Part shown: in pieces, positions 1,246 through 20,440 of the stretch
How positions within the stretch are numbered: position 1 is the first letter of the stretch
How the letters are laid out: every line of letters begins with the position of its first letter
Virus record (IMG/VR): IMGVR_UViG_3300043469_001288
Coordinates: 1 to 24,271 of that record
From: a virus
Reading direction: 5' to 3' (one strand)
Length of the DNA stretch: 24,271 nucleotides
Notes under the pieces: generated by a model
Told to the model about the DNA's origin: nothing
Databases searched by the model: none
What the model saw: only the letters and a program-made list of their open reading frames with translations
Position numbers and translations under genes: made by a program

Positions 1246-1869
1246 ATGAATAGTCAGAATATTTTAAAGTTTTATGGTTCCAGATTGGATATTAAGTTGG
1301 ATAGTTCAGAGTTTTACGACTATGAGATATCTAAAGTTTCAGGTGATTATAACACAGATGTCCTAGATTTAGGTTCCCCAATTACATATACTGGGTTAAC
1401 GATTGATGAAAGTTTAGCATTTTTTAGTTGTTCTAGAATCACAATAACGTTAAGTGAATATAATAATACTGTAAATGACCCCAGCTACATATATTCTGGG
1501 ATATCATTTACTTTGGACTATGATAATTTTGTAAATAATTTTGGTTCACCATATGAACACATAATTTTAAATAACCATATATACACGTACACAGGTATTA
1601 CTGGGGAAACCCATTATTTTAGAATTACTCAGTTTAATCAGAATTTAAACATTGACGACAACTTATATGATTATTTAACGGATAACCCAACACCTACCCC
1701 TACACCAACAATAACGTCAACATCAACACCAACACCAACAATAAGTGCAACACCATATCAAACACCAACATTAACCACGACACCAAACCAAACATTAACA
1801 CCAACACCAACACCAACAACAAATACTAATGGATTAAATACGGTTTTTGTCTCTTATACAATTTTATAA
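1246..1869 (+). CDS. Putative virion/adhesin protein with Thr-Pro-rich C-terminal tail
   Basis: A 207-aa protein of two parts. Residues 1-147 form a beta-rich, Tyr/Asn-rich, acidic domain that I do not recognise. Residues 148-192 are a low-complexity Thr-Pro linker of TPTPT units, and the chain ends with a short hydrophobic tip containing VFVSYTIL. The same kind of linker occurs in the genes at 3134 and 5548, and the short C-terminal tip resembles the DITYNII ending of the 3134 product. That suggests one family of extended surface or fibre proteins. No signal peptide is seen, as expected for a virion protein. The start follows directly after an exact TATTTATA element. Its stop codon overlaps the next gene's start (TAATG), so it is translationally coupled to the serine protease. 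It may be an accessory fibre or a partner or substrate of that protease; this is inference. Confidence 0.75.
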   Translation: MNSQNILKFYGSRLDIKLDSSEFYDYEISKVSGDYNTDVLDLGSPITYTGLTIDESLAFFSCSRITITLSEYNNTVNDPSYIYSGISFTLDYDNFVNNFGSPYEHIILNNHIYTYTGITGETHYFRITQFNQNLNIDDNLYDYLTDNPTPTPTPTITSTSTPTPTISATPYQTPTLTTTPNQTLTPTPTPTTNTNGLNTVFVSYTIL

Positions 1870-3101
1870 TGATGAATAGTACTATAAACGAAAAAATAAA
1901 AGAACTTTTTGAATCAACACCCAAGAACATTAGTGTTGCTTTTGGTAAAAAAACGATTGCAGGGGAATTAACCGGTGAACTCGCATTTATGTTTATGGTT
2001 CCAGAGAAATTACCATTATCTGAAATCCCAGAACATGAAATATTACCATCAACTGTCGTTATTGGTGATGACACATATAAAACAGATGTTATTGAAGTTG
2101 GTGAAATAAAACTTATTGCTTGTGATTCAAGCACAAATTCTAGTTGTTATGGTTGGCAATCAACTCCACCGAGTAATCAAAATACAATCAGACCTATAAA
2201 AGGCGGTATTCAAATAAGTTCGCACAATAACTCTTTAAATTATCCTAGTTCAATAACAGTAGGAACTTTAGGGTTTATAGCAATAGATACTGAAACATCC
2301 GCAATAGTAGGGGTTTCAAACAACCACGTTTTGGTTAAAAATGCGTTTTATACTGGTGAAAGAAATATAAATGGCGCAAGTATAGAAAATGAAATAGATG
2401 ATAATGTGTATCAAAATGGATTTGACCATTCAACTGGTGGAACGATTGGTAAAGTTATTAGATACGTTCCTTTAACCAAATCTGGGGTAAATCAAGTTGA
2501 TGGTGCTTTGTTTGCAATATATTCAAATGTAATATCTAATTCAGAATCTTTTTTACAACATGGATTATCAATTTCAACATCGATGCCATTTGCATCAACT
2601 TCGGAGATAAATAATGCATTAGTTGGTGATTATCCTTTGGCTAGTTCTGGTAGAAGTACTGGGGCTAAAATGAACAGCCCATGTGGATTGGTCGTTAATT
2701 CTTTAGGTGCCATAACATATGTTGGTCCGTTTTATGATAATGGCGGATATGAAACGCCATTGTTTAATGATTTAATTGCGTTTAGTAGAGAAAATGCCGA
2801 TTGTAACTATCCTATTTATCCAGGAGATTCTGGTTCAGGTTTACTTGCTAATATTGATGGAACTTGGAAAATTATTGGGCTTTGTTTTGCCGGTAGTAAC
2901 ACAATGGGATACGCTTGTAGAATTGATCATGTGGCTTCACAATTAGGAATACAATCTTGGGATGGTACATCAAAACCATTTATCGATATTAATTCAATAG
3001 ATATAAAAGCAGTGCTTGGCACTTCAACAGATAAAACAATTGATTGTAGTGGTACAACATATTGGCAAATGGGGTCAGCTAATAATACAAACTTTTGTTA
3101 A
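1869..3101 (+). CDS. Trypsin-like (S1/NAL1-type) serine protease in the fibre cluster
   Basis: A 410-aa protein with a chymotrypsin-fold catalytic triad that can be read directly: His153 in SNNHVL, Asp211 in VDGALF, and Ser321 in GDSGSG (319-324). The N-terminal part, about residues 15-75 (FGKKTIAGELTGELAFMFMV, then KLPLSEIP, then TDVIEVG), matches the leader region I know from bacterial NAL1-like trypsin-like proteases, so the family call is firm. No signal peptide or membrane segment is visible, so if it leaves the cell it would do so on the virion or after lysis. It is coupled by TAATG to the small Thr-Pro protein upstream and followed 32 nt later by the large adhesin. Inferred roles are maturation of the neighbouring fibre proteins or cleavage of a host surface protein. 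It is unrelated to the usual prohead protease (gp21 type), so capsid maturation is unlikely. ATG at 1869 or 1872 could be the start. Confidence 0.85.
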   Translation: MMNSTINEKIKELFESTPKNISVAFGKKTIAGELTGELAFMFMVPEKLPLSEIPEHEILPSTVVIGDDTYKTDVIEVGEIKLIACDSSTNSSCYGWQSTPPSNQNTIRPIKGGIQISSHNNSLNYPSSITVGTLGFIAIDTETSAIVGVSNNHVLVKNAFYTGERNINGASIENEIDDNVYQNGFDHSTGGTIGKVIRYVPLTKSGVNQVDGALFAIYSNVISNSESFLQHGLSISTSMPFASTSEINNALVGDYPLASSGRSTGAKMNSPCGLVVNSLGAITYVGPFYDNGGYETPLFNDLIAFSRENADCNYPIYPGDSGSGLLANIDGTWKIIGLCFAGSNTMGYACRIDHVASQLGIQSWDGTSKPFIDINSIDIKAVLGTSTDKTIDCSGTTYWQMGSANNTNFC

Positions 3102-3133: not shown

Positions 3134-5533
3134 ATGCCATATAGTTTAGAATTTGAGGGGATTATTTTATCTGGGTTTAGTAAAACCGTAATCGATTGTT
3201 CACAAAAACTTGCGGACCCAAATAACTGTTGCCCAATAACTCCAAAACTTTCAAATAAACCGTGGGCATATAAATTTGATACAGGGGCAGGTAGTGATAA
3301 TTGTGACCCAATCATTAAAAGAAGAACTGAAAAAGGTTGGACATTAGATTTTATATTTAACAGAGAAAACTTAAGTTGGGTATTTGGCGGGGTATTTTAT
3401 TATTTGGGTGTTAGAGGGGATAACGACCCAAATAACTATGCTGATAATAATCTATCATTTCAATTTACCTCAGATAGAAAAATTAAGTGGGTTGCTCATC
3501 ATTATTCTGGGTATTGTGCAACTGATTTAGGTTATCAAGAAGTTTTTTACACAGCTTCTGGTTTAACGCCGACAATTTGTACTACTGATGAAACAAAAGA
3601 TTTTAACGTCACAATTACATTTGATAGATATAAACATTATACGGATTGTGACATAGAGAACGATGGGGGTTGGAATGATTTATTACCTGGACCACGTTTA
3701 ATACCATATACCCCAACTGACACAGGGGTAACGTCTACACATATTTCTACTGGATATTATTTAACAAATTCAACAGGATCAACACTTTCAGGTGAAACTG
3801 AAGTTTATGTATATACTGAAGAATTAAATAAAAAATGGGCTAACGAAAGACAAAGAAGATTAGGTACGTTAAAAATTTATTTAAATGGTAGACCAATATA
3901 CAAATTAGAAGATTGGGAAGAAGTTATACCATCAAGTAGAGGTGTTCAACCATTCATACAATCTTGGGGTGGTGGGACTGGTTTAATGAATAATATACAT
4001 GCTGGAGTTTGTTGTTTTAACATGAAATCCATAAAATATTATGAAGAACCATTGGATTTTGTTCATGTTAGGCATAATTTTTTAACTAGATTGAATGATT
4101 ATGATTTCTTTATTTGTGGTGGTACTTGTGATGATGATATAAGTGGTTTTGTTCCGGAACCAACATCTACTAGAACACCAACACCAACACCTACGGTCAC
4201 TGCTAGTTCAACTAGTACACCTACACCTACGGCAACTCCTACCGCGACTCTTACGAGTACACCAACACCTACGGTCACTGCTAGTTCAACTAGTACACCT
4301 ACACCTACGGCAACTCCTACCGCGACTCTTACGAGTACACCAACACCTACACCAGCTTTAATTATACCAGAAAATGATTTCACATATGTGATTATTCCTG
4401 GTAATGATTTACTATATGTCATTATTCCAAATAATGATTTTACTTATACATTAATACCAACTAACGATTTAACTAGTACAATAATACCTAACAGTGATTT
4501 AGAGTATTTGGTTCTACCATTAAACGATATTAATTATACATTAATACCAAATACCGATTTAACATATACATTAATTCCAAATTCCGATTTAAGTTATTCA
4601 TTATTACAACCATCACCAACCCCAACAAGTACACCTACACCAACACCAACACCTACGGAGACAAGTACACCAACCCCAACTAATACACCAACACCTACGG
4701 AGACAAGTACACCAACTGAGACCAGTACACCAACAAGTACACCGACACCAACAATGGTTCCATATAACAAAATTGTTGACTTAAACATAAATGATTCAAT
4801 ATCATATTCTGGAAGTGGAACAACGGTTACGGACATTTTGGGTAACACAAATGCAAGTATAATTGGTTCACCATCATATCAAAATGATGGATGTACTTCG
4901 TCAATAGTGTTGAACGGTACCAGTCAATATATTTTAACCAACACCTCAATTAATACACTTTATGATTCTACAGATACATCTATATTTCTTTGGGTTTATT
5001 TAACAGATAATGGTGTAATATTGAGTGAACAAGGTAGTGCTGTTTTAAACATTGGTTGGCACGATTCACAAATTGAAATGGTTAGTGGAACATTAAAGTT
5101 TAGTGTTTGGCCATATGGTAGTGAAATAACATCATCAATATCAACACCTCTTAATAATTGGTACTATATTGGATTTGTACAGAACAATACAACTTTAACC
5201 GCATATGTAAATGGACAAAGTGCTGGTTCATCAACAGTTGTTAGAGAGGCACCGTACCAAAGTAGTAATGGTTTATATTATGCAATAGGTACCGCAGATA
5301 GTACGAACTTAGGTGATGGTACATATTCTGCATTGAAATTTGGTAGATTAGAAATATGGGATGGTGCGATTTCATCTTCAGATGTTTTACAGAACTATAA
5401 TGATTCAGTAACCACTTGGATTTGTCCTACACCGACCCCAACCCCTACACCAACTATAAATCCAAGTTGTGATATCACATACAATATAGTGCCTTTTGAT
5501 ATGACTTGTGACATAACTTATAATATAATATAA
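3134..5533 (+). CDS. Large modular adhesin/tail fibre with jelly-roll domains, Thr-Pro linkers and 10-residue repeats
   Basis: A 799-aa modular protein. Residues 1-340 are a Cys-containing, concanavalin/LamG-like virion domain: GTLKIYLNGRPIYK at about 244-257, then SWGGGTGLMNNIH at 277-289, resemble a domain of phage structural proteins that typically reads as sugar-binding jelly roll. Residues 341-409 are a Thr-Pro linker containing an exact 26-residue duplication. Residues 410-489 are eight consecutive 10-residue repeats of pattern (I/L)IPxNDLTYx. Residues 490-540 are a second Thr-Pro linker. Residues 541-767 read as a LamG-like jelly roll (VLNGTSQYI, SIFLWVYL, NNWYYIGFV, TAYVNGQ, GRLEIWDGAIS). 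A third short Thr-Pro linker follows, and the end holds two copies of CDITYNI. The layout suggests a long, flexible receptor-binding fibre with two lectin-like heads. Receptor and glycan specificity cannot be told from sequence. No Shine-Dalgarno. Confidence 0.8.
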   Translation: MPYSLEFEGIILSGFSKTVIDCSQKLADPNNCCPITPKLSNKPWAYKFDTGAGSDNCDPIIKRRTEKGWTLDFIFNRENLSWVFGGVFYYLGVRGDNDPNNYADNNLSFQFTSDRKIKWVAHHYSGYCATDLGYQEVFYTASGLTPTICTTDETKDFNVTITFDRYKHYTDCDIENDGGWNDLLPGPRLIPYTPTDTGVTSTHISTGYYLTNSTGSTLSGETEVYVYTEELNKKWANERQRRLGTLKIYLNGRPIYKLEDWEEVIPSSRGVQPFIQSWGGGTGLMNNIHAGVCCFNMKSIKYYEEPLDFVHVRHNFLTRLNDYDFFICGGTCDDDISGFVPEPTSTRTPTPTPTVTASSTSTPTPTATPTATLTSTPTPTVTASSTSTPTPTATPTATLTSTPTPTPALIIPENDFTYVIIPGNDLLYVIIPNNDFTYTLIPTNDLTSTIIPNSDLEYLVLPLNDINYTLIPNTDLTYTLIPNSDLSYSLLQPSPTPTSTPTPTPTPTETSTPTPTNTPTPTETSTPTETSTPTSTPTPTMVPYNKIVDLNINDSISYSGSGTTVTDILGNTNASIIGSPSYQNDGCTSSIVLNGTSQYILTNTSINTLYDSTDTSIFLWVYLTDNGVILSEQGSAVLNIGWHDSQIEMVSGTLKFSVWPYGSEITSSISTPLNNWYYIGFVQNNTTLTAYVNGQSAGSSTVVREAPYQSSNGLYYAIGTADSTNLGDGTYSALKFGRLEIWDGAISSSDVLQNYNDSVTTWICPTPTPTPTPTINPSCDITYNIVPFDMTCDITYNII
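4181..4350 (+). repeat. Exact 78-bp tandem duplication inside Thr-Pro linker
   Basis: 4181-4258 and 4259-4336 are identical base for base, including synonymous positions, followed by the first 14 nt of a third copy. Each unit encodes 26 residues in frame. Identity at silent positions indicates a recent duplication, or ongoing recombination that homogenises the copies. Confidence 0.9.
4361..4600 (+). repeat. Eight 30-bp (10-residue) tandem repeats within the adhesin
   Basis: Eight in-frame 30-nt units encode the decapeptide pattern (I/L/V)(I/L)PxN(D)(L/F)xY(T/V). Units are diverged at DNA level, unlike the neighbouring 78-bp duplication, so this array is older and kept by selection on protein. 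Asn-Asp and Tyr recur at fixed positions, as expected for a stacked beta-strand or fibre shaft. Confidence 0.9.
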
Positions 5534-5547
5534 AATAAAGATATAAA

Positions 5548-6636
5548 ATGACAACAGTTCAAATATTAACAACAAACTATAGTGGTCAAACCGCCACAAT
5601 CACATTTTCCCCGTGTAGTGGAGGAACTATAAATTTAGGTTCACAAGTCATTCCTTACAATTATATAAGTGATAATTACTTAGGTGAATATTCGCTATAT
5701 TTTGCGGATTTTAATCAAACCTGCACATTTAATGTTCCGTGTCCAACAGAAACTCCAACACCTACACCAACGGAAACTCCAACACCAACACCAACACCTA
5801 CATCAACAGAAACTCCTACACCAACAACAACTCCAACCAATACAGAAACCCCAACTAATACACCAACTCCAACTTCAACTGATTCGAGTTCAATAACTAC
5901 ATACACAATTTCAGGATGTACTAATCTAAATGTTTTAGTTGTCGATTTAGGACCAGGACTTATAGTTCCTGGAGATGTAAACTATTACACATTCACAGGA
6001 GCAACACCAAGTGGATGTTATTCAGTCATTGGTAAGATAAATGCTCCGATAGACGACGCGTTTACCACATCATTTGGAACTGGTGGATGTAATGATTGTG
6101 AGAGTACTTATATAACTCCAACCCCAACTCCTACGAGTACACCTACTCCAACATCAACAAATACCCCAACTCCTACGAGTACACCTACTCCAACACCTAC
6201 ATCAGGTCTTGTGGTAACAATTTTAGAGGTTGGTTCTGACGTTATAATGTCAGGTTCCGGTTCTCTTAACCTAACAGGATTAATTGAAGGTTCAGTACAA
6301 ACAGCCGGAGGTATTAACGGTACGTTGGGTTATTGGGTAATTGGTCAATCTAATCTATTTTTTGCTAGGAAATTTTTTGGAAATAATCTAAATGTTTACC
6401 CTAATAGTTTCGGTTCAGGATATACAGCACCAACATCATACTCGGGACAAACATTTGGTATTCAGGATGGGTCACTAGGTAAAGATATAATTTTACCGAT
6501 AGGTTATACTTCAGGTAGTCCATTAAGTGGAACTGCAACGTTTGCAAATAAAACAATATCAGGTATGGGACTAACACCTGGTACTTATTTATATGATTGG
6601 GGAAGTGATTCGATAACATTACAAATCGGTTCTTAA
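5548..6636 (+). CDS. Modular adhesin: shared N-terminal domain, two Thr-Pro linkers, Cys-rich domain, secreted-protein-like C-terminal domain
   Basis: 362 aa with clear modules. Residues 1-65 form a beta-rich domain (NYSGQTATITF, LGSQVIPY, YSLYFADF) that is homologous to the N-terminus of the next gene's product. Residues 66-114 are a Thr-Pro-Glu linker. Residues 115-188 form a small domain with four Cys (SGCTN, PSGCYSV, GGCNDC), possibly disulphide-linked or metal-binding. Residues 189-219 are a second Thr-Pro linker. Residues 220-362 form a beta-rich domain ending in the pattern LPIGYTSGSPLSGTATF, then GLTPGTYLYDWG, then DSITLQIG. I recall this end from bacterial secreted PEP-CTERM-type proteins, which suggests capture from a bacterial surface protein. 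The shared N-terminus probably docks the fibre to a common virion site, with the C-terminus as variable tip. No Shine-Dalgarno precedes the start. Receptor unknown. Confidence 0.75.
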   Translation: MTTVQILTTNYSGQTATITFSPCSGGTINLGSQVIPYNYISDNYLGEYSLYFADFNQTCTFNVPCPTETPTPTPTETPTPTPTPTSTETPTPTTTPTNTETPTNTPTPTSTDSSSITTYTISGCTNLNVLVVDLGPGLIVPGDVNYYTFTGATPSGCYSVIGKINAPIDDAFTTSFGTGGCNDCESTYITPTPTPTSTPTPTSTNTPTPTSTPTPTPTSGLVVTILEVGSDVIMSGSGSLNLTGLIEGSVQTAGGINGTLGYWVIGQSNLFFARKFFGNNLNVYPNSFGSGYTAPTSYSGQTFGIQDGSLGKDIILPIGYTSGSPLSGTATFANKTISGMGLTPGTYLYDWGSDSITLQIGS

Positions 6637-6706: not shown

Positions 6707-8809
6707 ATGGCAGTAGGAGCAAGAATAACAAGTACACACCTGAGTGGTAAAACGGCAACAGTGACGTTTGTACCATATACAGGGGCAACATCGGGTACAA
6801 CTCAAAACCTTGGAACTAAGGTAATCCCTTTCAATAACATCACCACACACCCGTATGGTGTTTATAATTTATACTTTGCTGAATATGATTACACATACAC
6901 GTTAACCATACCACAACCAGATGCAAGTGTTCAATCGTTTGTTTATCAAAATAGAATGGTTGGTTCTGACAACTACGGTGCTGCGTTTTTAAATTTTGAT
7001 GTTTTAACCGCAGAAATTATTGACTTAGGTGTTGATACTAATGTATGGAATAATCAGAATATATATGTGTTAGATAATTCAGGTTATATGCACTATTTCA
7101 CAGGTGTTGACGATGGTGATGATAGATTAGTGATATTCACAAATGCCATTCACGAAGAAATTGGAAGATATAGTGGTACAACTAATGGTTATAGTGGTGA
7201 CGATTTAGATGGTAAGTGGGTTACATTTGAAGATGAAGATAATGGTGTGTTGACTTACTCAGATGGTGTGTCAGTATACACATACACTTGGAATCCAGAT
7301 ATATATAGTATCGATATTGAGTGGAATTATGATGCAACCACGTCCGATGGTACAATGATTATCGAAAAATGGGAAGTTGAACCTTTAAGTGGGTGGACAT
7401 ACAATGGACCGGGTACATCACACATAGTTAATCCAACTGACGGTACAACAACTTTATTTAAAACTTGGACAGATGGAACATACATTAGACATAAAATGAC
7501 AAATTCATCTGATTTTATTGCTGTTTTAACTGAAACTCAAGGTTCCTCAAACGTGTACACTAATTTTGAAATATATAACACAAGTGGAACCATTTTAGAG
7601 ACGGTTTCATTAACTGGTGCCACATATAGCAATTATAATGACCAATTTCACGGAACAAACAAATATACCATAATACTCTATGATAATGATAATGTAGACA
7701 CACCATATAAAATAATAAGTTATAATGGTAACACATCAAACTTAATTGAAACATCACACGCTAGAGGTACAGGATATACAGAAAACAATATAGATGGAGA
7801 TTCTGGTTTATATCCAGATAGTGATGGAAATGATGGTGGTGTTGTAATAACTTTTTATGACACTGATAATTGGAATAATTTTGGTTCAGATGTTACATAC
7901 TGTGACATTATGTATATGTTCAATAATCAAACATCATTTAGTACATATACATTCGCAAACAACGAACCAAAAACAATTAATACTTGGGGTCAATTAAGTG
8001 ACATTTATAGAGTTCCGTGTGTAAATGGTGATGGTATTGCATCTATGTTAACCATTATGTCGGGTAGTACTCGTATAGAAAGTATGAATATTAGTGTATC
8101 TGGTGTTACTAATTTGAACTGGAATTCATTGGGTAATAGAACGGCTGTACAAATTATGACAAACAGTAATAATAACGTAACTTACAAATTAATTAACGAA
8201 TTAGGTGTTGTAATTGATGAAATAAACGATTACGGTTTAATATCAGCTTATGCATCAAGTATGTATTCTTTTGGTGAAACCGCCTATCTTACAATCAGAA
8301 CGGATGGTGACCTTGGATTTTATGTATATAGTGGTAGTACTGGATTTACCTCAACAGATTATTATAATGATTTAAGTTCAACAAATCAATATTCTTCAGG
8401 TACAGATAAGTACAATGGTGCAATGGTTTTATATAACACCGACCAATTAGATTTTAGAGTGTTAACATCAACTGGAATAACTAATGAGTTTAGTTTCCCT
8501 GAGTATAATGATTTTGATATTTCAGTTGGTGAGAGCAAGTTTATGTTTGTTTATAATGAAACTAACGGTGGTGTAACTAAAATAAGATTGTATAATTTTT
8601 CTGGAACACTATTAAACAGTGAAACAACAACTTGGACTAATGGTTGGGATGATACATATGGTGTTAAAGATAGATTTGTTGTTATGAACTATAATGGGGA
8701 TGACACGGTTGAAGTTTATTTAGTTAGTGAAAATACTATTACATCAGTAACAACTCAAGATTATAGTAGTGAACAATCTACGAATGATTGGGTTTATCAA
8801 AATGACTAA
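6707..8809 (+). CDS. Putative tail fibre/adhesin (700 aa) with shared N-terminal domain and repetitive beta-rich body
   Basis: Residues 1-69 (SGKTATVTF, LGTKVIPF, YNLYFAEY) are clearly related to residues 1-65 of the 5548 product, with a few residues inserted after the TGA turn. The remaining 630 residues lack Thr-Pro linkers and are a Tyr/Asn/Asp/Thr-rich beta body. Repeated strand patterns include NFEIYNTSGTILETV, TYKLINELGVVIDEI and KIRLYNFSGTLLNSE, which look like successive blades of a beta-propeller; this fold call is inference. No catalytic motif, signal peptide or membrane span is seen. It is the last large gene of the adhesin cluster and has its own upstream TATTTATA element. Likely a receptor-binding or baseplate-decorating protein that attaches at the same site as the preceding protein, as an alternative or a companion. 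Confidence 0.75.
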   Translation: MAVGARITSTHLSGKTATVTFVPYTGATSGTTQNLGTKVIPFNNITTHPYGVYNLYFAEYDYTYTLTIPQPDASVQSFVYQNRMVGSDNYGAAFLNFDVLTAEIIDLGVDTNVWNNQNIYVLDNSGYMHYFTGVDDGDDRLVIFTNAIHEEIGRYSGTTNGYSGDDLDGKWVTFEDEDNGVLTYSDGVSVYTYTWNPDIYSIDIEWNYDATTSDGTMIIEKWEVEPLSGWTYNGPGTSHIVNPTDGTTTLFKTWTDGTYIRHKMTNSSDFIAVLTETQGSSNVYTNFEIYNTSGTILETVSLTGATYSNYNDQFHGTNKYTIILYDNDNVDTPYKIISYNGNTSNLIETSHARGTGYTENNIDGDSGLYPDSDGNDGGVVITFYDTDNWNNFGSDVTYCDIMYMFNNQTSFSTYTFANNEPKTINTWGQLSDIYRVPCVNGDGIASMLTIMSGSTRIESMNISVSGVTNLNWNSLGNRTAVQIMTNSNNNVTYKLINELGVVIDEINDYGLISAYASSMYSFGETAYLTIRTDGDLGFYVYSGSTGFTSTDYYNDLSSTNQYSSGTDKYNGAMVLYNTDQLDFRVLTSTGITNEFSFPEYNDFDISVGESKFMFVYNETNGGVTKIRLYNFSGTLLNSETTTWTNGWDDTYGVKDRFVVMNYNGDDTVEVYLVSENTITSVTTQDYSSEQSTNDWVYQND

Positions 8810-8828: not shown

Positions 8829-9071
8829 ATGAAAATATTAGATATTGATGTTAAAGTCATCAAAGACAAACAAAAAATTAAAAGTTTTCAAAAAACTTTT
8901 AACACTAATGAACCATTAACGGTTGAACACATTAAAGGTGTTATTAAAAATGAAATGGGATTTCCATTTGAAATAGTAAAAGAAGAATTTTACTGTAAGT
9001 CAAATGAATTAAAAAATGAAGATAACGCACCATTTAAATCAGGTAACGAATTTATTTTAACAATTAAGTAA
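8829..9071 (+). CDS. Small hypothetical protein (80 aa)
   Basis: Eighty residues, basic, no signal peptide or membrane segment, no recognised family. It has a plausible alpha/beta pattern: ILDIDVKVI, then helix VEHIKGVIKNEM, then strands FEIVKEEFYC and NEFILTIK. The shape recalls a ubiquitin-like small fold, but this is only a visual impression. It lies 19 nt after the 700-aa fibre gene and its stop codon overlaps the start of the next gene (TAATG), so the two are coupled and probably act together. An accessory baseplate or fibre-assembly protein is a reasonable guess from context only. Confidence 0.65.
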   Translation: MKILDIDVKVIKDKQKIKSFQKTFNTNEPLTVEHIKGVIKNEMGFPFEIVKEEFYCKSNELKNEDNAPFKSGNEFILTIK

Positions 9072-9439
9072 TGGAATTTTTTATCAGACAAGGGGCAACA
9101 GACCCAATCCTTAAAATGAGATTGATTGATGACGGTAAAAACGACAAGTCGTCCTTTAATGATCTATTGGAGAATTCTGACATAACATTTGAAATGTATG
9201 ATGTTAAAACCGGTAATCCAGTTATTTTAAACGCAAATTGTTATTTAACAACTAGAGACAAAAAATATAACCAAACAACCGATGAGTACTATATAACATA
9301 TAGATTTACAACTCAACAAACAGATATTATTGGTAAGTATGAAGCTATTATATCAGTTCAATTTTTAGATACAAACTCAAGCCCGACAAACAAATTAATT
9401 TTACCAATTAGAGAAAAACTATACATTAACATTATTTAA
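9071..9439 (+). CDS. BppU-like Ig-fold baseplate/fibre protein
   Basis: 122 aa. The arrangement FIRQGATDPILKMRLIDDG, a central SDITFEMYD strand, then YYITYRFTTQQTD, TDIIGKYEAIISVQF and a C-terminal LPIREKLYINI strand is the typical layout of the small Ig-like N-terminal domain of BppU-type phage baseplate upper proteins. In those a Thr/Asp-Gly-x-Tyr stretch precedes a long strand. Length fits one such domain alone, with no C-terminal trimerisation or receptor part. It is coupled to the 80-aa gene upstream. Its TAA and the polymerase TAA on the opposite strand share the palindrome TTAA, so the two genes converge with a 4-nt overlap and no space for a separate terminator. Inferred as a structural adaptor between baseplate and fibres. 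Confidence 0.6.
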   Translation: MEFFIRQGATDPILKMRLIDDGKNDKSSFNDLLENSDITFEMYDVKTGNPVILNANCYLTTRDKKYNQTTDEYYITYRFTTQQTDIIGKYEAIISVQFLDTNSSPTNKLILPIREKLYINII

Positions 9440-12368: not shown

Positions 12369-12386
12369 TCATATCGAATGATATGA
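12369..12386. repeat. Short inverted repeat upstream of the polymerase gene
   Basis: TCATATC and GATATGA form a perfect 7-bp inverted repeat with a 4-nt spacer in the 93-nt gap between the polymerase and structural genes. It lacks a T-tract, so an operator for the polymerase promoter is more likely than a terminator. A TATATTTG box on the minus strand at 12401-12408 resembles the Bacteroidota -7 element TAnnTTTG, but no clear -33 partner is seen. Confidence 0.3.
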
Positions 12387-12432
12387 TTTGTCTTGAACTT
12401 CAAATATACATAATTGTTCCTTAAATAAAAAA

Positions 12433-13548
12433 TTAGATTACGTTAATAGGTGCCGGCATTGCCCTATATTTTAATGCTTTGTTAAGATTTTCTGCCTCGT
12501 TACCCTTTCTTTCCATCATTTTGTCTGGGCGCAATCTTTCCAATCTTTGCATTAATTCCTCGTTTAATTTTAATTTTTCGTCCTTTCCTTCTGTTAAAAG
12601 TGATTGATAATCAAGTGTTACTTCGCTATCTGGCACCTTTAATGCACCAGAAAATTTACCATAAATTCTACCCAACGCTTCTTTAGAATAAGCGGTCGTA
12701 TACTTTCTAACCCAGTTTTGTGCGGGTTTATTTAGTTCATCCCAAGCTAATTGTTCAACCATAACATCTGAAGGTAATTTTACAATACTTTTGTTGTCAT
12801 CTATACAAGTATCTGGGTCGTTAAGATCATAGTACCAATACCAAACCTTATAATTCGTGGATGCTAATTTATTGAAATCGAATCTACCGCCTGGAACATT
12901 GTAAAGGTGAATGAATTTTTTACCTTCAGGACCTGCTGTAATTCTATATGTTAAATCACCGCCAATTAAACGGTTTTTAATATTTCTGTCTTGCATTCTA
13001 AGTAACAAGTCATATGCTGGTAGCATAAAATAAGAGCCCTGAGCACCTACCTGAGCAAATCCACCAATACCACCAAAACCAACGCCACCTAGTCCACCAA
13101 AACCACCTAAAAACGGATCAACAATTGAATCACTCAATTCTGGTCTGGTAAACCATAATAACTCATTTATTTCTCTACCAGCGGGGATTTCGTAAACCTG
13201 AACGTTTTCTTGAATATCAAAATAGTCCTTTTTAAGTATGTCTTTACCACCGGCCTGTAAACCAACGATTTTAGAATAAGCATGAGAATATTGTGTTTCA
13301 AAATTCATATCCCTAGTAGTAAACGCCCTTGTAAGTGACTGTGTATCAACGTCTAAACCAACCAATGATGACCATTGAGATTCAATTAACCAGTCGTGGA
13401 CTAGTTGCTCATAGTCGTTAATTGATAATTCTAGGAACGTATCCATTTGTTCTTCCGTTAACTCAATACCTCTAACAGGCATACCTAAAAGGTGCAAAAT
13501 CTGAGTATAAAGTTTTTCTTTTTCGGGGGCGCTAATAACTGTGCTCAT
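12433..13548 (-). CDS. Probable virion structural protein (neck-like)
   Basis: 371 aa. The N-terminus (YTQILHLLGMPVRGIELTEE, followed by a helix and DYEQLVHDWLIESQW) is the pattern I know from T4-like phage proteins annotated as neck or virion structural protein: a short helical module around LGxPVxxIELT. The assignment is from memory and the exact role is unsure. Residues 148-171 are an unusual Gly-rich insertion built from GGFGG and GGIGG units, probably a flexible loop. The C-terminal third (EKLKLNEELMQRLERLRPDKMM) is helical and charged. No membrane span or signal peptide. A TATTTATA element reads toward the gene 14 nt before its start, like the other structural genes and unlike the polymerase it precedes. 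So it is likely expressed late while the polymerase has separate control. It may be the gp13/gp14 counterpart. Confidence 0.6.
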   Translation of the reverse strand: MSTVISAPEKEKLYTQILHLLGMPVRGIELTEEQMDTFLELSINDYEQLVHDWLIESQWSSLVGLDVDTQSLTRAFTTRDMNFETQYSHAYSKIVGLQAGGKDILKKDYFDIQENVQVYEIPAGREINELLWFTRPELSDSIVDPFLGGFGGLGGVGFGGIGGFAQVGAQGSYFMLPAYDLLLRMQDRNIKNRLIGGDLTYRITAGPEGKKFIHLYNVPGGRFDFNKLASTNYKVWYWYYDLNDPDTCIDDNKSIVKLPSDVMVEQLAWDELNKPAQNWVRKYTTAYSKEALGRIYGKFSGALKVPDSEVTLDYQSLLTEGKDEKLKLNEELMQRLERLRPDKMMERKGNEAENLNKALKYRAMPAPINVI

Positions 13549-13562
13549 ACTTGTTTTATTTC

Positions 13563-13570
13563 TATAAATA
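13563..13570 (-). promoter_or_regulatory. TATTTATA element (minus strand) before neck-like gene
   Basis: The plus strand reads TATAAATA. On the minus strand it is TATTTATAGAAATAAAAC, ending 14 nt before the ATG at 13548. Read on the plus strand the octamer equals the T4 late-promoter box, which could instead serve the small gene at 13599. The orientation of the other copies favours the minus-strand gene. Confidence 0.45.
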
Positions 13571-13598
13571 CCTTATTATTGGATAAATAAGTAAAAAT

Positions 13599-16103: not shown

Positions 16104-17339
16104 ATGGGAATACCAAAAAGAAAAAACGACATACAAATCTACAAAGGTAAAGAATTGACCGGTAGAAGACAGGAATTGTTAGATAAAATAACAAAGTCGG
16201 ATACGTATTTACCTGACTCTATTCTACATGACGATTTAGATATGGGTATGTTAGATTTTGTTAACACTAATTTTAAAGTTATTAGTGACGGTAAACCTAT
16301 TCCAATTATTCCAAAAATTTTAACGATACAAAGATGGGCTCAGGTAATGAATACTTGGGAGTTTTCCGACGATGACGGTAATATGAAAATACCATTTATG
16401 GGTATCATAAGAAGACCTGATGTACAACCGGGAACAAATCCATCAATACAAAGAACAATCCCAGAAAGATTACCTTTCCATTACGCAACAGTTGCTACTT
16501 GGAACGGCACACAAATGGGTGCAGACGTTTATAAGATACCACAGCCGGTCGCAGTGGACATTACATATGAGGTTACCATTATTTGTAACAAAATACGTGA
16601 ACTAAACAGATTCAATAAAATTGTAATGCAAAAATTTGCATCTAGACAAGCGTATACAACGGTAAAAGGTCATTACATACCTATTTTACTAGATAAGGTT
16701 GAGGATAACTCTCCGATTGAACAAATTGATAATCGTAGATTTTACTCGCAAAATTATCAATTTACTTTGTTAGGTTTATTAATTGACTCTGAAGAATTTG
16801 AGGTTAAGCCGGCCATTAGTAGAATGTTTCTATTAAATGAATTCATTGCAGGATCTAATTATCAAAAGAAATATATTAATAAAACAATAGAATTGACCGT
16901 TGTAACTTTCCCAGGGGATGGTTTGCAAAAACAATTTAGCGTTGGTGAGAGTATTGGTATTCTATTTAATGTTTCAATAAACGGTCTTTTACAAGAAAGA
17001 GATGTAGATTATTTCCATATCGCCGGAACATCTAAAATAACATTTGTAGATGCTCCGTTTGAAAATAGTTTAATTGCAATAACATATTATAAAGGTAAAA
17101 ATAGTGTATTCATAGATAGCTACGGTAAACCAATTCAAGTTTCCACAGAATATTACACTTACGATGGTTCAACCCTTGTTTTCGAATTATTGAATAATAT
17201 TGACAGCATTGTTAGTTTAGATATTAACGGTCTTTTGGAAGAAGAGGGTGGCGGATTTGATATTAGTTCATCAAATGAAATAACTCTCAATTATTCCCCT
17301 GTGATTAATTCAAAAATTGGTGTGACATATCTACACTAA
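16104..17339 (+). CDS. gp15-like tail terminator/sheath-stabilising protein with two C-terminal tandem domains
   Basis: 411 aa. Residues 94-245 follow the plan of T4 gp15: IPFMGIIRRPDVQPG, then PQPVAVDITYEVTIICNKIRE, then a long helix and a second strand set (IDNRRFYSQNYQFTLLGLLI), where gp15 has a similar strand, an Asp-containing loop and an Arg-Arg-x-x-x-x-x-x-x-F stretch. Position just before sheath and tube genes supports the call. Residues 268-330 and 351-411 form two tandem copies of one domain: each has an F-x-x-x-G start, then a VSINGLL or LDINGLLEE strand, then IAITYYK or IGVTYLH. T4 gp15 (272 aa) lacks these, so they are additions, possibly extra collar decorations or head-contact modules. 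No Shine-Dalgarno beyond coincidental GAGGAG. Its stop overlaps by 4 nt the stop of the opposite-strand ribbon-helix-helix gene. Confidence 0.65.
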   Translation: MGIPKRKNDIQIYKGKELTGRRQELLDKITKSDTYLPDSILHDDLDMGMLDFVNTNFKVISDGKPIPIIPKILTIQRWAQVMNTWEFSDDDGNMKIPFMGIIRRPDVQPGTNPSIQRTIPERLPFHYATVATWNGTQMGADVYKIPQPVAVDITYEVTIICNKIRELNRFNKIVMQKFASRQAYTTVKGHYIPILLDKVEDNSPIEQIDNRRFYSQNYQFTLLGLLIDSEEFEVKPAISRMFLLNEFIAGSNYQKKYINKTIELTVVTFPGDGLQKQFSVGESIGILFNVSINGLLQERDVDYFHIAGTSKITFVDAPFENSLIAITYYKGKNSVFIDSYGKPIQVSTEYYTYDGSTLVFELLNNIDSIVSLDINGLLEEEGGGFDISSSNEITLNYSPVINSKIGVTYLH

Positions 17340-17620: not shown

Positions 17621-20440
17621 ATGGCAAATTCAAACAGAGTTTTCGTTTCTCCGGGGGTCTACACTTCAGAGAAAGATTTAACATTCGTAGCGCAAAGTGT
17701 AGGGGTAACAACATTGGGTTTAGTAGGTGAAACTTTAAAAGGTCCAGCTTTCGAACCAATCTTGGTGTCTAATTTCGACGAATTCAAAACATATTTTGGT
17801 GGCACTTCACCCGCAAAAGACGGAAGTGATAACCCAAAATACGAGTTACCTTATGTAGCAAAATCATATTTACAAGAATCAAATCAGTTATTTGTAACCC
17901 GAGTATTGGGTTTAACTGGTTATAAACCAAACAGAACCTATGGTATTAAAACATTGGGTGGTATGGTTGTTGGAGACCTTGTAACAACAGGAACAACAAC
18001 TGGAACAACAGTGGTTACCGCAAGTGGTATTACTGGTTCAACATTTTATGCTGAACTTTCAGGAAAAACAGCATCTGATGGCGACTCAGTACCAGGATTT
18101 ATCTTAGACCAATATAGTGGAAACACTAGTGGGAATACTGGTAACTGGTTTACAATTGGAACTGTACCAACTGCTGCAACAAGTTCTTTAACTGGAACCA
18201 CTGTTTCATCACCAATAGGTGCTAGTGCAACCAAAAACTGGTATAACACATACTCAAACTTTACAAACAAGGTTTATTCATACCTATTCGTTTATAATCA
18301 CGGAACAACATCATTTGATGTTACAAGATATGAATATAGCGCAACTTTAGCAAATGACGGAAAAGTTGTTTGTTTGTTAAGGTCTAGAGGTTCATACATT
18401 TCGGAAGTATTAACACATAGAGTTACTGGTACAACATCGGTTCAAATTACTGGATCAGATATTGCATTAGATCCTTTATCAGAATTCACATTAACTGTTA
18501 CAGACGTCGATGCTGATGTTAGAACATTTGATTGTAGTTTTGACACTGCTTCAACAAAATATATTACAAAAGTTTTAGGTGTTGATGTTTTTGATAAAGA
18601 AAAAACGGTTAACCCAATATATGTTCACGAAGTTTATCCAAATTTAATTAAAAATCTTTTCCAACAAGGTCAAATCAGAGGTTTAAATACTACTGAATAT
18701 GTAAACGCAGAAGGAACAGATTTTGTACAACAATGGGATATGGCGGGTTCAAATTTAGTTGTTTCTGAAGTAAGAGGTGGTAACGTATTTGATTTATTTA
18801 GTTTCTTAACAATATCAGATGGTAACGCTTCTAATAATGAAGTTAAAATTACTATTCAAAATATTAATGTTGAAACTGGTGAATTTGATGTTTTAGTTCG
18901 TGATTTTTATGATTCAGACGAAAACCAAGTGGTTCTAGAGAAGTTCTCAAGATGTTCAATGAATCCGGATCTTCCAGGTTTCGTTGCTAAAAAAATTGGT
19001 ACATCTGATGGTGAATATGAAATCAGAAGTAAATACGTTATGTTAGTATTGGCTGATAACGCGCCAGCAGACGCAATTCCAGCGGGTTTCAAAGGATGTA
19101 CAACCAAAGATTCTATCGGAGGTTTAACATTTAAAACAAAATACAATACAGCAGGTGAAACAATTTATTATAACACAGATGGTAGTGCGGAAATATCTAA
19201 TGGAGATAAAGTTAAAAAAGTAACATTAGGTTTATCATCGCAATCACATATTGGATATGACAAAGACATGTTCAAATTTAAGGGTGTTGGTGCTAATGAG
19301 GTAACATTTGGTTTTCACTTATCAACAAATGCCTCAACAATAACTGACGCTAATGGAAATACAGTATATGAAACAACTGCATATGACTTTGAAGGTCAAA
19401 CAGGTGTGGATAACCCATTAACAGGTATATCTTATTGTAAATTCACATTACCAGTATTTGGCGGATTTGATGGTTGGGATATCTACAGAAATGTTAGAAC
19501 AAACACAGACGGATATATTTTTGGTAAAAACACATATTCAACCAATCACTCAACAAGTGGTGGTGTATTCAGTTCAACAGTTGGTAACTCAGATTATTAC
19601 GCTTATTTAGAAGGTATTAATTCATTCTCTAATCCAGAAGCAGTAGATATTAATTTATTTGCAACTCCAGGTATCAATTGGTTAAACCACAGTTCTCTTG
19701 TAACTCAAGCTATTGATATGGTTGAGAATGATAGAGCGGATTCATTATACATTATTAATGCACCAAACCACACAACAACAGCGGAAGTTGTTGATGATTT
19801 AGATAGTGTTAGTTTAGACACAAACTATTCAGCAACTTACTGGCCTTGGATTCAAGTAAGAGATACTGACAACGCAACTCAACTTTACTTACCACCAACA
19901 GGAGAAGTTGTTAAAAACATTGCATTAACCGATAATGTATCATATCCTTGGTTTGCAGTTGCAGGTTATTCAAGAGGTTTAGTTAACTCAATTAAAGCAG
20001 CTAAAAAATTAACATTAGATGATAGAGATGAATTATACAAAAACAGAATTAACCCAATTGCGACATTCTCTGATACAGGTACAATTATTTGGGGTAACAA
20101 AACCTTACAAGTAAGAGAATCAGCATTAGATAGAATTAACGTAAGAAGATTGTTATTAAGAGCTAGAAAGTTGATTTCAGCAGTAGCAGTTAGATTATTG
20201 TTCGAACAAAATGATGATCAAGTAAGACAAGAATTCTTAAGTTTGGTTAACCCAATATTAGATTCTATTAAGAAAGAAAGAGGTTTGTATGATTTCCGCG
20301 TAGCGGTTTCTAACGACCCAGAAGACATTGATGCTAACACACTAAGAGGTAAGATTTACATTAAACCAACTAGATCATTAGAATTTATCGATGTAGAATT
20401 CATAATAACACCAACAGGTGCTTCTTTTGAAAATATATAA
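17621..20440 (+). CDS. gp18: Tail sheath protein (T4 gp18-like), enlarged
   Basis: 939 aa against 659 for T4 gp18. The N-terminus VFVSPGVYTSEKD, then GLVGETLKGPAFEPILV and FDEFKTYFGG, then LPYVAKSYLQ is a standard contractile-sheath start. The C-terminal 270 residues are the conserved sheath core: PPTGEVVKNIALTDNV, PWFAVAGYSRG, LTLDDRDELYKNRINPIATF, the INVRRLLLRARKLI helix, then NDPEDIDANTLRGKIYIKP. Between about residues 105 and 670 lie large beta-rich, Gly/Thr/Ser-rich insertions that should sit on the outside of the tail. The protein polymerises around the tube and contracts to drive it through the host envelope. Followed by a strong hairpin terminator, so it is probably transcribed as its own unit, as expected for a protein made in many copies. 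Start ATG follows an A-rich leader with no Shine-Dalgarno. Confidence 0.93.
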   Translation: MANSNRVFVSPGVYTSEKDLTFVAQSVGVTTLGLVGETLKGPAFEPILVSNFDEFKTYFGGTSPAKDGSDNPKYELPYVAKSYLQESNQLFVTRVLGLTGYKPNRTYGIKTLGGMVVGDLVTTGTTTGTTVVTASGITGSTFYAELSGKTASDGDSVPGFILDQYSGNTSGNTGNWFTIGTVPTAATSSLTGTTVSSPIGASATKNWYNTYSNFTNKVYSYLFVYNHGTTSFDVTRYEYSATLANDGKVVCLLRSRGSYISEVLTHRVTGTTSVQITGSDIALDPLSEFTLTVTDVDADVRTFDCSFDTASTKYITKVLGVDVFDKEKTVNPIYVHEVYPNLIKNLFQQGQIRGLNTTEYVNAEGTDFVQQWDMAGSNLVVSEVRGGNVFDLFSFLTISDGNASNNEVKITIQNINVETGEFDVLVRDFYDSDENQVVLEKFSRCSMNPDLPGFVAKKIGTSDGEYEIRSKYVMLVLADNAPADAIPAGFKGCTTKDSIGGLTFKTKYNTAGETIYYNTDGSAEISNGDKVKKVTLGLSSQSHIGYDKDMFKFKGVGANEVTFGFHLSTNASTITDANGNTVYETTAYDFEGQTGVDNPLTGISYCKFTLPVFGGFDGWDIYRNVRTNTDGYIFGKNTYSTNHSTSGGVFSSTVGNSDYYAYLEGINSFSNPEAVDINLFATPGINWLNHSSLVTQAIDMVENDRADSLYIINAPNHTTTAEVVDDLDSVSLDTNYSATYWPWIQVRDTDNATQLYLPPTGEVVKNIALTDNVSYPWFAVAGYSRGLVNSIKAAKKLTLDDRDELYKNRINPIATFSDTGTIIWGNKTLQVRESALDRINVRRLLLRARKLISAVAVRLLFEQNDDQVRQEFLSLVNPILDSIKKERGLYDFRVAVSNDPEDIDANTLRGKIYIKPTRSLEFIDVEFIITPTGASFENI

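Follow-up and report, generated by a model that had tools for sequence, protein, structure and literature searches.

Positions 1869–3101 (+) of the DNA stretch analysed here (hereafter, the window, a 24,271-base virus record whose ORFs and start codons are mechanical calls) encode what, judging by homology, profile and predicted fold, is a complete NAL1-like trypsin-fold serine protease, predicted to be active, and the product of the gene directly upstream ends in a conserved peptide, or tag, of approximately ten residues, which is specific to the gene adjoining the enzyme and was overlooked in the original prediction made for this locus. The best explanation, to which a probability of about 0.64 could be assigned, is that the protease is carried by the virion, held at the end of a flexible tether by a portable docking peptide, a reading in which we infer the enzyme activity, the docking, the virion location and the host substrate.

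The protease would, accordingly to this explanation, belong to the phage particle, and the upstream protein would be its tether, the N-terminal domain of which would fix the protein to the tail, followed by a flexible Thr-Pro linker and the 10-residue tag, with translational coupling yielding partner and protease in balance. The tag would add to the protease as a beta-strand, probably at a phage-specific C-terminal module, thereby leaving the enzyme hanging at the end of a flexible arm, and tag and protease would move between phages as a single cassette attachable to almost any virion protein. Once displayed, the protease would probably trim a putative host surface protein during adsorption, such a protein being the most likely substrate by analogy with tail depolymerases. 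Phage tails carry enzymes degrading sugars and cell walls; trypsin-type proteases, to our knowledge, are hardly known on them.

The protease, its setting and its relatives

The window derives from a T4-like myovirus, as it has recognised tail sheath (17621–20440), tail tube, baseplate hub, head-tail adaptor and DNA polymerase genes, and a second contig of the same phage (60.7 kb) shows 99% DNA identity to it and encodes an identical protease protein. The proposed tethering partner (1246–1869, +; 207 aa) consists of an N-terminal domain (aa 1–146), a Thr-Pro-rich flexible linker (aa ~148–196; 1687–1833, +) and the C-terminal candidate docking tag NTVFVSYTIL (1837–1866, +), the latter recognised by the conservation of this motif at the end of the pre-protease gene in relatives. 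The partner stop codon TAA (1867–1869) overlaps the protease ATG (1869–1871) in a TAATG (1867–1871, +), and a second ATG directly follows the first, so the protease starts at either Met1 or Met2. The next gene after the protease encodes a 799-aa adhesin (3134–5533, +) that combines a Laminin_G_3 domain (Pfam E 1.9e-10) with Thr-Pro linkers. Both the coupling to the preceding Thr-Pro-tailed protein and the fibre-operon setting, as originally proposed, are thus borne out. Between the Thr-Pro linkers of the adhesin (window positions 4361–4600), a 10-residue unit of the [ND]DLTYTLIP type is repeated about eight times (30-nt repeats), and the C-terminus of the adhesin reads DITYNIVPFDMTCDITYNII; these may be peptides by which further partners dock in a strand-like manner.

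The protease itself (410 aa; a single stop-free frame) has a conserved NAL1-type N-terminal domain (aa ~20–80; 1926–2108, +), as delineated by alignments, and its predicted catalytic triad is made up of His153 (CAC, 2325–2327, +), Asp211 (2499–2501, +) and Ser321 (TCT, 2829–2831, +), the serine lying in GDSGSG. Among 83 distinct relatives, the corresponding residues are His in 82, Asp in 81 and Ser in 81 (one of the serine exceptions being a contig-end truncation), and the triad aligns with invariant columns in the Rhizobium, archaeal-virus and phage homologs. In addition, PHROG 20754 (“protease”) was matched at E 4.5e-16, a profile built from four homologs matched the rice NAL1 chains at E 1e-13 over both domains, and the AlphaFold model of the window protease (pLDDT 89.2, pTM 0.92) returned NAL1 as all of its best 34 Foldseek matches in the PDB (E down to 1.6e-15, TM about 0.60). 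Taken together, these settle the identity of the protein, and the original prediction of a complete triad in a NAL1-like enzyme stands down to the exact residues. The single-sequence Pfam match to NAL1_N was sub-threshold (E 0.081; 13.1 bits vs. a curated cut-off of 27), and, as the cut-off was missed and the profile and fold were positive, the protein is classed as a distant relative of NAL1 rather than its ortholog. The raw-sequence Pfam matches to NAL1_N and Cyclophil_like, being both overlapping and sub-threshold, were discarded as evidence.

The same protease subfamily is encoded at more than 100 metagenomic phage loci, all of them on uncultured contigs (up to 321 kb), and the triad is intact in 80 of the 83 distinct copies in the subfamily alignment, the exceptions being an Asp-to-Glu replacement in L138, a contig-end truncation (L144) and a divergent paralog in L155. 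Common to the phage members is a C-terminal module, some 50 aa long, that closes with YWQVG (aa 362–410 in the window protease, where it ends in ..YWQMG..; 2952–3098, +), which is absent from the Rhizobium and archaeal-virus homologs. A search for relatives in cultured phages gave a protein of the Aeropyrum coil-shaped virus as the sole match, and two further members searched likewise had none, while a search for a cellular origin of the phage subfamily among 84,980 genomes gave two weak distant matches and nothing more. The protease family is widespread in uncultured phages and, by these searches, near-absent from cultured ones, and the original remark that such enzymes are not standard phage parts holds for the latter but not for the former. 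Searches of open-access literature turned up no account of the family in phage tails, and subscription journals might hold such a description. One relative stands out by its architecture: the NAL1-like protease of L022 (6634–9984, +; record 3300001446_000012; compare L019:7962–9020) has two in-frame inserts of ~400 and ~350 aa, the first of which begins at a Cys after ITAG, ends in VVHN-Ser and contains a LADGY-type motif, and the sequence features suggest that these are probably inteins within a protease gene.

The terminal peptide of the upstream protein

The peptide shared by the products encoded directly before the protease takes, apart from its window version, such forms as NTIYTHFESL, NTIYKYLDIL, NTIFTKFNSKPF, NTIYTTFGTL, NTLFIHIPTI, NTIYVHTP and RTIFTKFS. 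With locus counts reduced to 63 distinct proteases, 48 loci have an upstream product that terminates in an approximate consensus of [N]T[ILV][YFW]xx[FIW], compared with <1% of other genes, and in all 48 tagged pairs the gap to the protease start is between -10 and +20 nt. A plain motif (T[ILVM][YFW]xx[FIWYLVT] within the last 16 residues) gave a similar picture, being present in 47/62 distinct upstream products vs. 7/1078 other ORFs. A PSSM trained on the first 13 partners and scored on loci retrieved later, with the training tags excluded and a cut of 9 bits, recovered 24 of the 50 new distinct upstream C-termini and none of the 594 other C-termini from the same loci (Mann–Whitney p 2e-18), and across a whole 215-kb contig the partner was the top tag match (19.3 bits vs. 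10.3 for the next one). The plain motif was missed in 15/63 distinct upstream products, six of which have a protease upstream and some of which carry degenerate versions; L130, L147 and L051 are tagless with no obvious fusion either. As the tag is written in differing synonymous codons and its spacing from the start codon is not constant, the tag is a protein-level signal, and a reading at the RNA level (e.g., as a ribosome-binding site) was ruled out on the same grounds. The peptide HTIYCHYDF at the C-terminus of the distant L018 protease also scored as tag-like, and was rejected as a chance likeness, since the alignment places it in the last strand of the trypsin fold.

Despite the constancy of their ends, the partners are otherwise diverse, with N-termini that are unrelated across many groups (42 clusters, contig-end fragments included), and the tag is thus portable among unrelated virion proteins. 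Among the partners ending in a tag or a tag-like peptide are homologs of the window proteins starting at 1246, 3134, 5548, 9071 and 16104. The N-terminal domain of the window partner has a counterpart at the beginning of the L136 partner (62% identity over 131 aa), which bears a different tag, and the L137 homolog of the adhesin (61% over 328 aa) bears one too, as do homologs of the Thr-Pro fibre protein (5548–6636, +) in L089 and L091. The N-terminus of the following 700-aa fibre-like protein (6707–8809, +), which is without recognised domains, is related to the 5548–6636 type (L089 match). The 122-aa protein (9071–9439, +) has homologs in L027/L096 and L033/L099 that continue into Thr-Pro linkers and the tag, and the structural-region protein encoded directly before the tail sheath (16104–17339, +) has an L155 homolog (51% over 243 aa) ending in a tag-like peptide, with a protease encoded next. 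The L014 partner is of the crassvirus muzzle type (crAss_MUZ, E 8.7e-40), and the L064 partner clusters with it; in phiCrAss001, the tail terminates in the muzzle (PMC10172136). Such partners, recognised by their sequences, support the virion role that had been suggested for the protease at the outset. Tag similarity tracks protease similarity even between loci whose partners have no relation to each other (r 0.43, a value reached in none of 5000 permutations). Part of this correlation is expected, tag and protease being physically linked on the same stretch of DNA; it nevertheless shows that both are passed on as a unit, independently of the rest of the partner.

Fusions, arrays and the competing explanations

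A tag was also sought elsewhere in genomes with an untagged protease, where G004 and G005 gave weaker matches (10–11 bits) and G002 nothing convincing, the best score on its 177-kb contig (L013) being 6.1 bits. In this tagless genome with its orphan protease, a single chain combines the protease, Thr-Pro linkers, Cohesin, PKD and DUF285, and comparable protease fusions are seen in L071 (PKD, DUF285) and L148 (a glycine-rich domain). Among distinct loci whose upstream gene is not a protease, a long C-terminal extension is present in 6/9 tagless vs. 8/47 tagged proteases, which makes tag and fusion look like partial alternatives; 8 of the 63 distinct proteases combine the tag with a C-terminal fusion. 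Proteases can also follow one another: the first protease of L027 ends in a Thr-Pro linker and a tag, after which a second one is encoded. This second tandem protease (L027:10924–12870, +) also has a phosphatidylethanolamine-binding-protein (PBP) domain (E 3e-10) in the same chain. A row of NAL1-like proteases, several with tag-like ends, lies directly before the tail sheath in L155 (418–13577, +), the last of them (12372–13577) having apparently lost all three triad residues and being a possible pseudoenzyme. The partner in L110 (6441–6989, +) ends in two tandem tag copies (NTVFVKYDIIPGDAPGTNTVFVKYDVY), as if able to hold two proteases.

When the partner tail of L082 was modelled by AF2 as read through an in-frame stop into the protease (14 paired alignment rows; run without a control), tag residues 9–14 came out as a strand at pLDDT ~70 and the joining residues 19–30 as disordered at pLDDT <50. 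The terminal YWQVG strand is longer in this tag-bearing model than in the window protease modelled alone, and the modelling thus suggests the phage-specific C-terminal module as a candidate tag-docking site.

The rival explanations, in decreasing order of plausibility, cast the tag as a substrate, the tag as an inhibitor, the protease as an intracellular enzyme and the linkers as its targets. A peptide conserved in the protein encoded next to a protease might mark the site of cutting, an active-site cleft can also hold an extended strand, and maturation proteases are usual in phages according to a jumbo-phage survey (PMC7824862), all of which would suit a maturation protease clipping the C-terminus of the upstream partner, e.g., to license fibre folding or assembly. 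However, the tag core ends 0–24 nt ahead of the ORF end, so that cleavage would remove very little, the proteases of L027 and L155 themselves bear tag-like ends ahead of the next protease, and the natural fusions substitute covalent attachment for the tag, which tethering fits better; the substrate reading is, hence, deemed unlikely, albeit the most serious of the four. A good deal less probable is that the tag acts as an inhibitory, zymogen-like plug keeping the protease inactive until host binding pulls it off: a strand-like docking, as hinted at by the model, and the coupled production would suit this, yet the tag has few residues and tolerates changes to them, and a propeptide-like co-folding domain is absent.

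Cellular relatives of the enzyme, such as plant NAL1, have no part in phage virions, and those from bacteria are hypothetical proteins, so a protease acting inside the host during takeover, and found in a late operon by chance, might be imagined, but its position after virion proteins is fixed in several phage groups, and the covalent fusion to adhesin domains and the tag on crassvirus muzzle proteins argue against this as well, leaving it slightly more improbable still. Least credible of all, and in our opinion very improbable, is the cutting of the Thr-Pro linkers of neighbouring fibres, which the original prediction had named as obvious candidate cleavage sites. The survey of relatives for co-occurring Thr-Pro fibres that it had called for did find Thr-Pro, Ser-Pro or Thr-rich tails in 38/63 distinct upstream products; the linkers, however, may be Thr-Pro, Ser-Pro or poly-Thr, or missing altogether (L111, L132 and L135), and it is the tag of about ten residues that is conserved instead.

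Should the tethering of a virion-borne protease by a docking tag, which remains the preferred explanation, be true, a portable tag would account for the acquisition of an enzyme by fibres of uncultured phages that have no relation to each other, with no need for the genes to fuse. It would also serve as a sequence signature for virion enzymes in metagenomes and predict what crassvirus muzzle proteins bind, and might be turned into a small genetically encoded device for joining proteins. There is perhaps an even chance of the broader proposition that uncultured T4-like myoviruses and crassviruses share a tag–protease cassette, the tag of which recombination has placed on unrelated virion proteins, and that some genomes daisy-chain proteases at the tail tip, shaving host surface proteins as the phage adsorbs.

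Comparison with known systems

Rice NARROW LEAF 1 (NAL1; PDB 8pmi, 7y77 and 8hau) shares the N-terminal domain and the trypsin-like fold architecture with the phage protein, which, at 16–18% identity, adds the C-terminal module and a dedicated partner tag, and the plant substrates differ. The solved NAL1 structures show an oligomeric assembly, whereas the phage protein was modelled as a single chain. The NAL1-like hypothetical proteins encoded on Rhizobium and Gemmatirosa plasmids have the same two domains and triad (26–33% identity), with the bacterial plasmid proteins lacking the phage C-terminal module. The two Rhizobium copies (L005:2277–5858 and L006:2345–5894) adjoin radical SAM and HEXXH putative peptide-modification genes, and not fibres, gene neighbours that suggest a role in peptide modification or maturation for these copies. 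The “putative serine protease” gp25 of the Aeropyrum coil-shaped virus (PHROG 20754) places the same family in a virus, although in an archaeal one, with the C-terminal module absent and an upstream tag looked for and not found.

The tail-tip family of the crassvirus muzzle (phiCrAss001 gp44) includes the upstream partners of L014 and L064; the paper on gp44 makes no mention of a protease (PMC10172136). Unlike gp44, these partners have C-terminal Thr-rich linkers and the tag, followed by NAL1-like proteases. In terms of the working principle, the phage tag would resemble dockerin–cohesin pairs and encapsulin cargo-loading peptides, in which recruitment of an enzyme or a scaffold partner depends on a small terminal module that is portable. 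These have no sequence relation to the phage tag, and the proposed system differs from them in that a phage virion protein would recruit a protease, with the recruiting gene coupled to the gene of the enzyme.
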